NCBI GenBank assembly: GCA_022711655.1
Contig: JAKLEM010000016.1
Location: forward strand, 1-38,584
Direction: 5' to 3'
DNA: 38,584 bases
Origin: Candidatus Auribacterota bacterium
GTDB taxonomy: Bacteria; Auribacterota; Ancaeobacteria; Ancaeobacterales; Ancaeobacteraceae
Both the position numbers and the translations under genes were made by a program. Position 1 is the stretch's first letter; each line of letters starts with the position of its first letter. Shown piece after piece: positions 27,668 through 30,708 of this stretch. The notes beneath the pieces were generated by a model. The model worked only from the letters and a program-made list of their open reading frames with translations. It was not told the origin of the DNA and searched no databases.

Positions 27668-29209
27668 GCGGAACCGCACGATCTCCCGCATTTCGCTGCA
27701 GCCGAAAATGTATGAACAAACGCCGAAGGTCGCGATGCCGGCCACGATCGCGCACAGCAGCGACCCGGCCTGCGCGACGAGCCGCGTATGGCCGTAGAAG
27801 CCCGTCAGCCTGATCACCGCGACGCTGACAAAGGCCATGATCAGCGACGCCGCGCCTATCTTCGCGATCGACACGAGGATGCTCCGCAACTCCAGCCTGC
27901 CGTAGCGCTTCCTGAAGATATAGAGCAGCTGTATAACGTTCACGGCCGACGCGACGGACATCGCGAGGGCGATGCCGCCCTGGCGCAGCGGCTTCATGAG
28001 GATGAGCGACAGGGCTATATTCACGCCGAGGGCGATCCATGCGGCCTTGACCGGCGTCTTCATATCGTGAAGCGAATAGAAGGCGGGCGCAACGACCTTG
28101 ATCGCGGCGATGAAGAAGAGCCCGAACGAGAAAAAGAGCAGCGCGAAAGCGGTGCTTTCGGTGTCAGCCGCGGTGAACTTTCCGTGCTGGAAGAGCACCT
28201 TGATGATCGGCACCCGCAGGGCGATCAGGCCCGCGGCCGCGGGGATCGTCTCGAACGACACCATCCGCAGAGAAAAAGAGAGCAGCCCCTTCAGCCCCCG
28301 CATGTCGTCGGCCGCGGCGCGTTTCGACATCTCGGGCAGGATGACGATAGACAGCGAGATCACGAACACTCCGAGCACCAGCTCCATCACGCGGTCGGAA
28401 TAATAGAGGCTCGATACGGCGCCCTGCGCGAGGAACGAGGCGAGCAGCGATCCGAAAAGCAGCTCTATCTGCGTGACGCCGATGCCGAAGATGCCCGGGA
28501 CGATGAGCTGGCCGACCTTCCTGACCGCCGGGTGCTTGAATGAGATGCCGAAGCGGAACGTCATCCCGTTCTTCCTGAGGAGCGGGATCTGGACGGCGAC
28601 CTGCAATACGCCGCCTGCCAGCGCGCCGATCGCGGTCGCGACCGCAGGTTCCTCGAAGAGAGGCGATAACAGCAGCGTGCAGCCGATGATCGAGAGGTTC
28701 AGCAGTACCGGCGTGAACGAGGGGATGCCGAAGTAGCCCAGGGAGTTCAGTATCGCCATCGCCAGCGCGGCAAGGCCGATACAGAGGATGTACGGCGCGA
28801 GTATCCGGTTCAGCAGCACGGTGAGGGCGGTCTTGCCCGCGACGCTGTCGAAGCCGGGCGCCATGACCTTCACGATCAACGGCGAGAAGACGATGCCGAC
28901 GACCGTGATGACGGCGAGGATCAGCGACAGGGTATAGAACATCTTATTGGCGAAGTCCCAGACCTCCTCTTTCGAGTGGTCGGTCTTGTATTTGGTGAAG
29001 ACGGGGATGAAGGCAGCGGTCATCGATCCCTCGGCGACGAGACGGCGCAGGAGGTTGGCGATCCGGAAGGCGACGGTGAAGGCGTCCATGCTGAACCCCG
29101 CGCCCAGTATGGCTGCCAGCGTCGCGTCTCGCACATACCCGCAGACGCGGGAAACCGCCGTCATAAGGCTGACCGTCAGCGCGGATCGTACGATCTTTTT
29201 CTTACTCAT
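27638..29209 (-). CDS. murJ: Lipid II flippase MurJ (MviN)
   Basis: 523 aa, about 14 membrane segments of the MOP superfamily. It flips the peptidoglycan precursor lipid II across the inner membrane. The N-terminus has the diagnostic SALTVSLMTAVSRVCGYVRDATLAAILGAG with the conserved Arg residues, then FRIANLLRRLVAEGSMTAAFIPVF. Later segments LYYSDRVMELVLGVFVISLSIVILPEMSK and FYSLHDMKTPVKAA also fit. The start overlaps the nudix gene by 8 bp, so the two form one operon. The 3' end overlaps the convergent membrane-protein gene by 30 bp with no terminator between them. Confidence 0.95.
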   Translation of the reverse strand: MSKKKIVRSALTVSLMTAVSRVCGYVRDATLAAILGAGFSMDAFTVAFRIANLLRRLVAEGSMTAAFIPVFTKYKTDHSKEEVWDFANKMFYTLSLILAVITVVGIVFSPLIVKVMAPGFDSVAGKTALTVLLNRILAPYILCIGLAALAMAILNSLGYFGIPSFTPVLLNLSIIGCTLLLSPLFEEPAVATAIGALAGGVLQVAVQIPLLRKNGMTFRFGISFKHPAVRKVGQLIVPGIFGIGVTQIELLFGSLLASFLAQGAVSSLYYSDRVMELVLGVFVISLSIVILPEMSKRAAADDMRGLKGLLSFSLRMVSFETIPAAAGLIALRVPIIKVLFQHGKFTAADTESTAFALLFFSFGLFFIAAIKVVAPAFYSLHDMKTPVKAAWIALGVNIALSLILMKPLRQGGIALAMSVASAVNVIQLLYIFRKRYGRLELRSILVSIAKIGAASLIMAFVSVAVIRLTGFYGHTRLVAQAGSLLCAIVAGIATFGVCSYIFGCSEMREIVRFRSAMKQPADN

Positions 29210-29738
29210 GGTGTTTTCCCAGGTAGCAGAGGATGCCGGCGATCGTTTTGCCGTCCTTGATGGTCCCGGATCGTATCATTTTCACGATCCTCTCCGGCTT
29301 CATCGGGACGACTTCGATCTGCTCGTCGGCTTCGGGGTTCGCCGCAGAGGCCGTGAGGCCGGTCGCGACGTAGATATCTATCATTTCAGACGAATAGCCG
29401 GGGACCGGATAAATCGTTACAAGCCGCTTGATCTTCCTCGCGCGGTAACCCGTTTCTTCCGCGAGCTCTCGCCTGACGCAGACGGCAAGCCTTTCGCCTT
29501 TCTCCCGGGTCCCGGCCGGTATTTCGCAGAGCACCTGCTCGATCGCCTTGCGGAATTGCCTGATCAGGACGATGCGCCCGTCGTCGAGCACCGGGACGAC
29601 AGCGACGGCGCCCGGGTGGCTGATCAGGTCCCGCACCGCCCGGCGTCCGCCGGGGAGGACCACCTGGTGTCGCTGGACGCCGAACACCTTCCCGCGGAAA
29701 ACCGTTCTCTTGCTGACTGTCCGTTCGTACATTGGCAT
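29202..29738 (-). CDS. Nudix hydrolase (ADP-ribose pyrophosphatase-like)
   Basis: 178 aa. The Nudix box spans residues 76-98 (G76-x5-E82-x7-R90-E91-L-x-E94-E95-x-G97), which binds Mg2+ for cleavage of nucleoside diphosphate-X compounds. Preceding sequence VPVLDDGRIVLIRQFR and the EIPAG segment are typical of ADP-ribose pyrophosphatases (NudF group). ATG 29738 or ATG 29732 could be the start; neither has a clear Shine-Dalgarno sequence. It overlaps murJ by 8 bp. A large folded element (29758-29919) lies just upstream in its probable leader. Confidence 0.9.
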   Translation of the reverse strand: MPMYERTVSKRTVFRGKVFGVQRHQVVLPGGRRAVRDLISHPGAVAVVPVLDDGRIVLIRQFRKAIEQVLCEIPAGTREKGERLAVCVRRELAEETGYRARKIKRLVTIYPVPGYSSEMIDIYVATGLTASAANPEADEQIEVVPMKPERIVKMIRSGTIKDGKTIAGILCYLGKHHE

Positions 29739-29757: not shown

Positions 29758-29919
29758 TTAGCGGCGGACGGGGAGTTCGTGTGTCAGCACGTTGACAATT
29801 CGAGCGGGCACGGTGTCCCACCCGAAGGGTGGGACGAGCGAGAATTGTCGCCGAGCGAGATTTTCCTCGCTGGGGAAAATCTCGCGATGCTGACGCACGA
29901 ATTCCCCGTCTGCCGCTAG
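29758..29919. other. 162-nt three-way-junction inverted-repeat element
   Basis: Closing stem: 29758-29789 pairs with 29888-29919, 32 consecutive pairs on the plus strand including four G-U pairs (at 29758, 29766, 29775, 29782) and no mismatch. Inside are two hairpins. Hairpin A pairs 29793-29801 with 29842-29850, then after an internal loop 29814-29823 with 29827-29836 around a GAA triloop. Hairpin B pairs 29855-29867 with 29873-29885. Only 2-4 nt link the arms. A TA dinucleotide sits at each end (29759-29760 and 29917-29918). No coding sequence is evident. It may be a structured leader RNA of the minus-strand nudix-murJ operon, a plus-strand RNA, or a MITE. No second copy is seen in the window. 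Confidence 0.85.
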
Positions 29920-29933
29920 AGCACGTTAAGCGA

Positions 29934-29977
29934 TGCTGAAAGAGTGCCGCCTTGGCACCCGCTGCCTGCACTCAGCA
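29934..29977. other. Second folded segment beside the three-way junction
   Basis: TGCTGA (29934-29939) pairs with TCAGCA (29972-29977) and GTGC (29944-29947) with GCAC (29968-29971). The interior offers two competing small hairpins, GTGCC/GGCAC (29944-29948 with 29954-29958) or GGCA/TGCC (29954-29957 with 29963-29966). It fills most of the gap between the larger element and the divergent promoters. Confidence 0.45.
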
Positions 29978-29988
29978 AATGCTCCAGG

Positions 29989-30017
29989 ACTATAGAGGAA
30001 TTATCTTGATTTTGCAA
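29989..30017 (-). promoter_or_regulatory. Candidate promoter of the nudix-murJ operon
   Basis: Minus strand: -35 TTGCAA (30012-30017), 17-nt spacer, -10 TATAGT (29989-29994). The transcript would start near 29982, giving a leader of about 244 nt that contains both folded elements. Its -35 box directly abuts the -35 box of the plus-strand promoter. Confidence 0.55.
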
Positions 30018-30034
30018 GGGATATGCGCTATAAA
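30006..30034 (+). promoter_or_regulatory. Promoter of the DUF1571 gene, abutting the start codon
   Basis: -35 TTGATT (30006-30011), 17-nt spacer, -10 TATAAA (30029-30034). ATG 30043 follows after only 8 nt, and no Shine-Dalgarno sequence fits in that space, implying a leaderless mRNA. Confidence 0.65.
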
Positions 30035-30042
30035 GCAGGGCT

Positions 30043-30708
30043 ATGAAGCACATGATTCGAGCAGTAGTTGTCGTCGGGATGCTCTGCGGCGGCGCGTTCT
30101 CACAGGACGCAGTCGACCCGATCGAACTTATCCGCCAGACAGACGCGCAGTTCCAGCAGGTGCGCTCCTATACCTGCAAGGCGACAAGTATCTGTAAGAC
30201 CTATCACGGCAAGAAAGTCTCGACCTATCAGGACGTCGTCGAATATTCGTTCCAGAAACCGAAAAGCATCAAGATGAAGTGGCTTGCCCCGTGGAACATC
30301 AGGGGGCAGGTGGCGATCTATTCCGACGAGCAGCTGAAGGTCCATCTGAATTTCCTGCCGATGCCGATGAGCATCGACCCGAACGGCAAGGTCGCGAAAG
30401 ACGCAGGCGGCAACCGCATCTACAACACCGACTTCGGCGCGGTGATCAGGCAGATCATGGATATCAAGAAGGATATCCCCGAAACGGAAGTGACCTATCT
30501 GGGTATCGTCCAGTCAAATGGCAGGCAGGTCGACAAGGTCTCGCTCAGGAACCATGAAGGGTTGGTCTACTATTTCGTGGACCGCGAGCTTCTTCTCCCC
30601 GTCGCGATCGAGCAGTATACGCCCGAGATGCAGCTCGTCACGGCCGCTTATTTCGAGGACCTCAAGGTGAACGTCGCGATGTCGCCGTACGAGTTTGTCC
30701 AGGATTGA
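30043..30708 (+). CDS. DUF1571-family secreted protein (LolA-like fold suspected)
   Basis: 221 aa. A signal peptide ends near residue 20 (VVVVGMLCGGAFSQ). The mature part has DPIELIRQTDAQFQQVRSYTCKATSI, then YSFQKPKSIKMKWLAPWNIRGQVAIY, DFGAVIRQIMDI and LLPVAIEQYTPEMQL, which match DUF1571 proteins. Their layout (a curved beta sheet lined by hydrophobic residues) resembles LolA/LppX-type lipid or lipoprotein carriers, so a periplasmic lipid-binding role is possible but unproven. It stands alone and is convergent with panD. Confidence 0.75.
   Translation: MKHMIRAVVVVGMLCGGAFSQDAVDPIELIRQTDAQFQQVRSYTCKATSICKTYHGKKVSTYQDVVEYSFQKPKSIKMKWLAPWNIRGQVAIYSDEQLKVHLNFLPMPMSIDPNGKVAKDAGGNRIYNTDFGAVIRQIMDIKKDIPETEVTYLGIVQSNGRQVDKVSLRNHEGLVYYFVDRELLLPVAIEQYTPEMQLVTAAYFEDLKVNVAMSPYEFVQD

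Follow-up and report, generated by a model that had tools for sequence, protein, structure and literature searches.

A dispersed family of three-way-junction repeats with strand-polar covariation in uncultured bacteria

Among described bacterial repeats, the ERIC and RU units of enterobacteria are MITE-like elements of 103–168 bp, non-coding and intergenic, whose terminal inverted repeats form stable stem-loops and for which TA termini and a TA target duplication have been reported (PMC2759123). REP sequences, which are linked to the Y1 transposase RAYT, are multicopy extragenic palindromes of 20–40 bp that end in a GTAG or CGTC tag and in which alternative complementary stem residues and frequent G·T pairing are found; the E. 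coli RAYT recognises them as single-stranded DNA (PMC3733652). Replication template switching at hairpins also yields compensatory changes, and this process is known to cause inversions and arm correction (PMC8794818). The repeat family analyzed here is likewise small, non-coding and intergenic, with terminal inverted repeats and stable stem-loops as in ERIC and RU, and with alternative complementary residues and wobble pairing as in REP. It differs from ERIC and RU in that TA termini or duplications are not seen, and in having a three-way junction, conserved loops, diverged but paired arms, strand polarity and distantly related hosts. It differs from REP in its length of about 160 nt, its three helices and the lack of a Y1 gene near the copies or in the host MAG, and no common tetranucleotide tag was present in the element ends inspected. 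Template switching accounts for compensatory changes and inversions, but leaves dispersal, conserved loops and the polarity of G·U over A·C unexplained. Thus, the family resembles ERIC-type MITEs and REP/RAYT in its dispersed extragenic habit, but cannot be filed in either class.

The copy from which the analysis started lies in the window, a stretch of 38,584 nt (contig JAKLEM010000016.1) from a Candidatus Auribacterota bacterium. Folding of the plus strand of the element with RNAfold gave a minimum free energy of −116.6 kcal/mol, compared to −59.6 ± 3.9 for dinucleotide shuffles (z = −14.7; 0 of 200 as good), in line with the claim of a sequence-only reading that the three-way-junction geometry is beyond chance. 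The fold of the minus strand is weaker (−98.2, z = −11.0). The closing stem is unbroken, and when the T29758–G29919 wobble is included it reaches the 32 pairs with four G-U that had been counted earlier; all of its imperfect pairs are G-U on the plus strand, also as described. Hairpin B comprises 2+9+2+9 bp with a 9-nt/2-nt internal loop, hairpin C has 14 bp, and the linkers are 1–2 nt long. A search of the window against Rfam 15 returned no family at its gathering threshold and nothing convincing over the element at E ≤ 10, so that the earlier statement that it belongs to no nameable RNA family is confirmed against this database.

Table 1. Features of the window element and its surroundings (coordinates of the window)
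Feature	Position	Strand	Evidence or remark
Whole element	29758..29919	+ (constrained strand)	R1 match 29759-29918, 174.6 bits
Closing stem, 5' arm	29759..29789	+	31 bp, 3 G-U; covaries between copies
Closing stem, 3' arm	29888..29918	+	22 own copies: 42 G·U vs 1 A·C
Hairpin B, stems and apical hairpin variable	29790..29853	+	Covariation
Hairpin B internal loop, conserved 5' side CGAGCGGGCACGGTGTCCC	29801..29819	+	Kept across genomes
Hairpin B internal loop, conserved 3' side GGGACGAGCGAG	29831..29842	+	Kept across genomes
Hairpin C	29855..29885	+	Conserved end CCTCGCTGGGG at 29865-29875
Arm remnant of a second family member (type 2)	29929..29965	+	33/37 identical to 3' arm of intact L137
Nudix gene, head of nudix-murJ; neighbour outside the element	29202..29738	-	PF00293

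On one side of the element is nudix-murJ (minus strand; identified by Pfam), on the other an unnamed plus-strand gene at 30043. The minus-strand promoter proposed at 29989-30017 is present (TTGCAA-17-TATAGT, graded fair) and is overlapped by a plus-strand promoter-like site, TTGATT...TATAAA (30006-30034), giving divergent promoter-like sites for nudix-murJ and the gene at 30043. The product of that gene (30043-30708, plus strand) is 221 aa long, appears to carry a signal sequence at its N-terminus and has no Pfam match at E ≤ 0.001. Elsewhere in the window, positions 1-2850 contain diverged tandem-like repeats with units of up to 300 nt that are 60–76% identical, probably encoding a repetitive surface protein.

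BLASTN of the element against its own genome, as the sequence-only reading had suggested, revealed many dispersed copies. Together with a covariance model built from 22 host copies (R1), the search identified about 24 full and about 10 diverged or truncated copies in the host genome, a 1.62-Mb MAG that is 75% complete. The repeats are non-coding and about 150–165 nt long. On refolding, every full host copy forms a closing stem that encloses hairpins, and most adopt this same three-way junction; the terminal inverted repeats form stems of 28–39 bp in 24 copies. All 29 host copies examined are intergenic according to a simple codon-usage gene caller, whose calls are approximate, and the orientation of neighbouring genes relative to the element is random (++ 13, −− 10, −+ 3, +− 2, one unknown; n = 29). 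No bias relative to replication was observed by GC skew (11 of 24 positive). There are no near-identical pairs among the host copies: divergence is at least 2% between cores and at least 14% between arms, for which the average is 39%. Between copies L002 and L010 the divergence is 4% for the core and 59% for the arms, indicating that core and arm histories are decoupled. In 354 kb of the host genome we found no separated halves of the kind expected for an autonomous split version, and the lone matches there are copies with altered or reverse-read hairpins.

A type-2 subfamily with arms GCAGCGGGTGACAGGGTGGC... was also observed. Its intact member L137 (G000:C4:15947-16100) lies 30 nt from the type-1 copy L120 (G000:C4:16130-16290), a type-2 arm remnant begins 10 nt downstream of the window element (Table 1), and a similar stretch is found in the 5' flank of L020. 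Adjacent insertion of family members looks recurrent.

To describe the distribution, an exact-pattern scan of 84,980 species genomes was performed, giving 76 loci, of which R1 confirmed about 45–50. Nearly all confirmed loci are in MAGs whose titles name Omnitrophota, one of the Patescibacteria groups (Uhrbacteria, Parcubacteria, Portnoybacteria, Liptonbacteria and others) or simply a 'bacterium'; many of the carriers are from groundwater, and all are uncultured. In a whole-genome search with a broader model (R2), 1–29 copies were found in each of 35 out of 35 MAGs, a result that represents confirmation rather than prevalence, as these MAGs were preselected by a pattern hit; G082, with 29 copies, and G080, with 11, are rich in the element. 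Four actinobacterial genomes with pattern hits had no R2 match (0/4), implying that their hits arose by chance. R2 matches were found in 8 of the 44 genomes from the phylum to which the window belongs and in 12 of 192 from that of an Uhrbacteria MAG (G059), both lower bounds, as few candidates were scored per genome; copy numbers outside the host are lower bounds as well, and the model E-values are rough. The viral contigs, phages and plasmids searched contained no match to the element, and in the papers searched on palindromic repeats, MITEs and structured RNA in these groups we found no description of the family.

We then turned to how the copies vary. Among the 22 own copies, 97.8% of pair cells hold standard pairs and 33 of the 58 pairs are changed on both sides; shuffles never reach these figures, and sliding the partner lowers pairing to 37–53%. 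For 41 sequences (the window copy plus 40 found in other genomes) the values are 89.2% standard pairs, 55 of 58 pairs with two-sided changes and 36–49% after sliding, in an alignment that was fitted to the model and leans towards structure. Covariation of the helices therefore exceeds both the shuffled and the slid controls, and the covariance search proposed earlier does find compensatory changes in other genomes. When the 22 own copies were aligned with MAFFT, without regard to pairing, their closing stem showed 423 Watson-Crick, 42 G·U, 1 A·C and 18 other combinations, compared to 294, 73, 40 and 76, respectively, when the 3' arms are permuted among the copies. The whole structure has 86 G·U vs 4 A·C, with 41 of the G·U contributed by two conserved wobble columns. 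In 65 copies from other genomes, using an arm alignment that scored G·U and A·C both as mismatches, we counted 84 G·U vs 18 A·C, with 41 copies leaning to G·U and 7 to A·C. Because a palindrome kept as double-stranded DNA has no reason for such a polarity, the sequence patterns indicate that the constraint is acting on one strand of fixed polarity folded on itself. The folded strand would be RNA or single-stranded DNA, as the sequence fits both.

From lineage to lineage, the stems are almost free to change. In hairpin B, CGAGCGGGCAYGGTGTCCC is retained across from GGGACGAGCGAG, related forms including GCGAGCATGGTACC and GAGCGGCCAYGGTGCCC, and the internal loop is conserved as CGAGCGGGCAYGGTG / CGAGCGAG; the CGAG/CGAG opposition in this hairpin could form tandem G·A pairs. 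Hairpin C keeps CWCGCYGGG or a near variant across lineages. The outer ends depend on the lineage: several Omnitrophota copies have GCGGGTGGC...CAGGACCCGC, and GCGAGG...CCGAGCG occurs in several of those listed under Patescibacteria.

The behaviour of the element at individual sites was followed by mapping flanks between species of one genus (G003, G018, G026). The site of L144 is occupied in one species and empty in G003; at that of L145, G018 retains a single arm and G003 is empty. The pair L152/L154 shows an in-place inversion of the entire element, which has kept its distinctive arm sequence, and G018 has one arm at this site. The pairs L158/L160 and L202/L218 occupy common intergenic regions in opposite orientation; as they disagree in position or in arms, they may have been inserted separately. 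L162/L157 share a region and orientation and have different arms. That some sites are common to several species implies that part of the set is vertically inherited. No exact target duplication could be defined, the congeneric intergenic sequence being too diverged. Different small repeats were seen nested in the element: a palindromic insert of about 62 nt (CCCGTGAAATTCGAAGAATTTCCGGGATTGAGTACCCG...) inside L202 (1357-1570) and within the remnant L222, both of G018, and a G+C-rich palindromic insert (GCCCTGCCTGCCGGCAGGCAGGG...), possibly a REP-like repeat, that breaks hairpin B of L218 and L228 in G003.

Candidate partner genes were examined separately. RAYT/Y1 was rejected: Y1 transposases are frequent in the phylum (33/44), but none was detected in the host MAG (75% complete) or in 13 of the 35 carriers, and none of the 55 Y1 loci scanned had a convincing element. 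A partner gene adjoining the element was rejected as well, as the families of the 60 proteins encoded near foreign copies are ordinary, and none of the 25 most frequent is a mobility or transposase family.

Considering these data together, we hold with moderate confidence that the repeats are a new family of non-autonomous, MITE/REP-like mobile elements, in which the unit that spreads would be a single strand of fixed polarity folded as a three-way junction. The dispersal and sporadic occurrence of the copies, their presence next to one another and the losses that left remnants speak for a non-autonomous mobile element, and polarity together with the conserved loops suggests that a folded single strand is the recognised form. 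The mobile intermediate, RNA or single-stranded DNA, would give rise to new copies by insertion, and a putative factor acting in trans would read the conserved loops, with the stems needing only to pair. We counted in favour of mobility the empty sites, the remnant sites and the one clear in-place inversion within one genus, and against it that no partner gene was found, the lack of near-identical copies (recent bursts) and of a definable duplication, and the sites common to several species. A more far-reaching proposal, which we regard as tentative, is that the family may constitute a new class of mobile element common to Omnitrophota and Patescibacteria, which would transpose as a folded single strand free of protein, possibly RNA, built as a fixed three-way junction, and whose CAYGGT internal loop and CWCGCYGGG hairpin end would be read by a putative recombinase or reverse transcriptase.

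Alternatively, the repeats could be a dispersed structured RNA functional in the host, with copies transcribed by read-through or from their own promoter and the plus-strand fold selected in place, e.g. for RNA processing, stability or protein binding. RNA-grade covariation with G·U tolerance, the conserved loops and the intergenic regions occupied in common speak for it. However, sigma70-like sites directed into the element are no more numerous than chance predicts on either side (1 vs 0.5 expected; 0 vs 0.5), those reading away, which belong to the neighbour genes, being above chance (6 vs 0.8; 4 vs 0.3). Furthermore, orientation to neighbour genes is random and varies between species, and the set of sites changes even inside one genus. 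We consider this explanation unlikely. The plus-strand RNA favoured in the sequence-only reading is borne out insofar as covariation and the G·U/A·C bias show a single-strand constraint; its RNA nature is not, with no promoter reading into the copies and single-stranded DNA equally compatible.

A passive DNA palindrome, in which template switching copies arm onto arm and flips the interior so that pairing persists without any function of the fold, would explain the faster replacement of arms than of cores (59% vs 4% in L002/L010) and the in-place inversion, and the mechanism is documented for hairpins (PMC8794818). Such a palindrome predicts neither core-linked polarity of G·U over A·C, so that the observed polarity largely refutes it, nor conserved loops over phylum-level distances, nor dispersal, and as a full account it is improbable, although template switching may contribute to arm turnover.

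Also at odds with the polarity is a classical MITE of double-stranded DNA, mobilised by a DDE transposase and duplicating a TA target, which we find very doubtful despite the terminal inverted repeats, dispersed copies and absent coding capacity. The flanks of host copies have no TA in common, and the edge TA of the window copy, earlier read as fitting a target duplication, is part of the complementary stem ends TTAGCGG / CCGCTAG rather than a duplication outside the element. The arms are more diverged than terminal repeats read by sequence would be, and no transposase family is among the most frequent near foreign copies. From the earlier MITE proposal, dispersal stands; TA duplications are not seen, and the strand bias is not what a plain double-stranded MITE would lead one to expect. 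Regulation of the murJ flippase through a leader of the nudix-murJ operon is hardly tenable and was rejected: the minus-strand promoter would put the element in that leader, but the constrained strand is antisense to it, and the setting is incidental since the other copies are intergenic, adjoin unrelated genes in random orientation and have no consistent downstream gene. The case is also a caution that a striking hairpin in a single leader may be a repeat.

The repeat, which we favour as a non-autonomous mobile family, is large, structured and strongly covarying, has no Rfam entry and is found in two groups of uncultured bacteria. It combines, unusually, dispersal in the manner of MITEs, covariation of RNA grade that is polar as to strand, and arms that are almost free to change yet remain paired. 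It offers a target for the search for a factor binding the conserved loops, and its covariance model is usable to trace genetic exchange between Omnitrophota and Patescibacteria.
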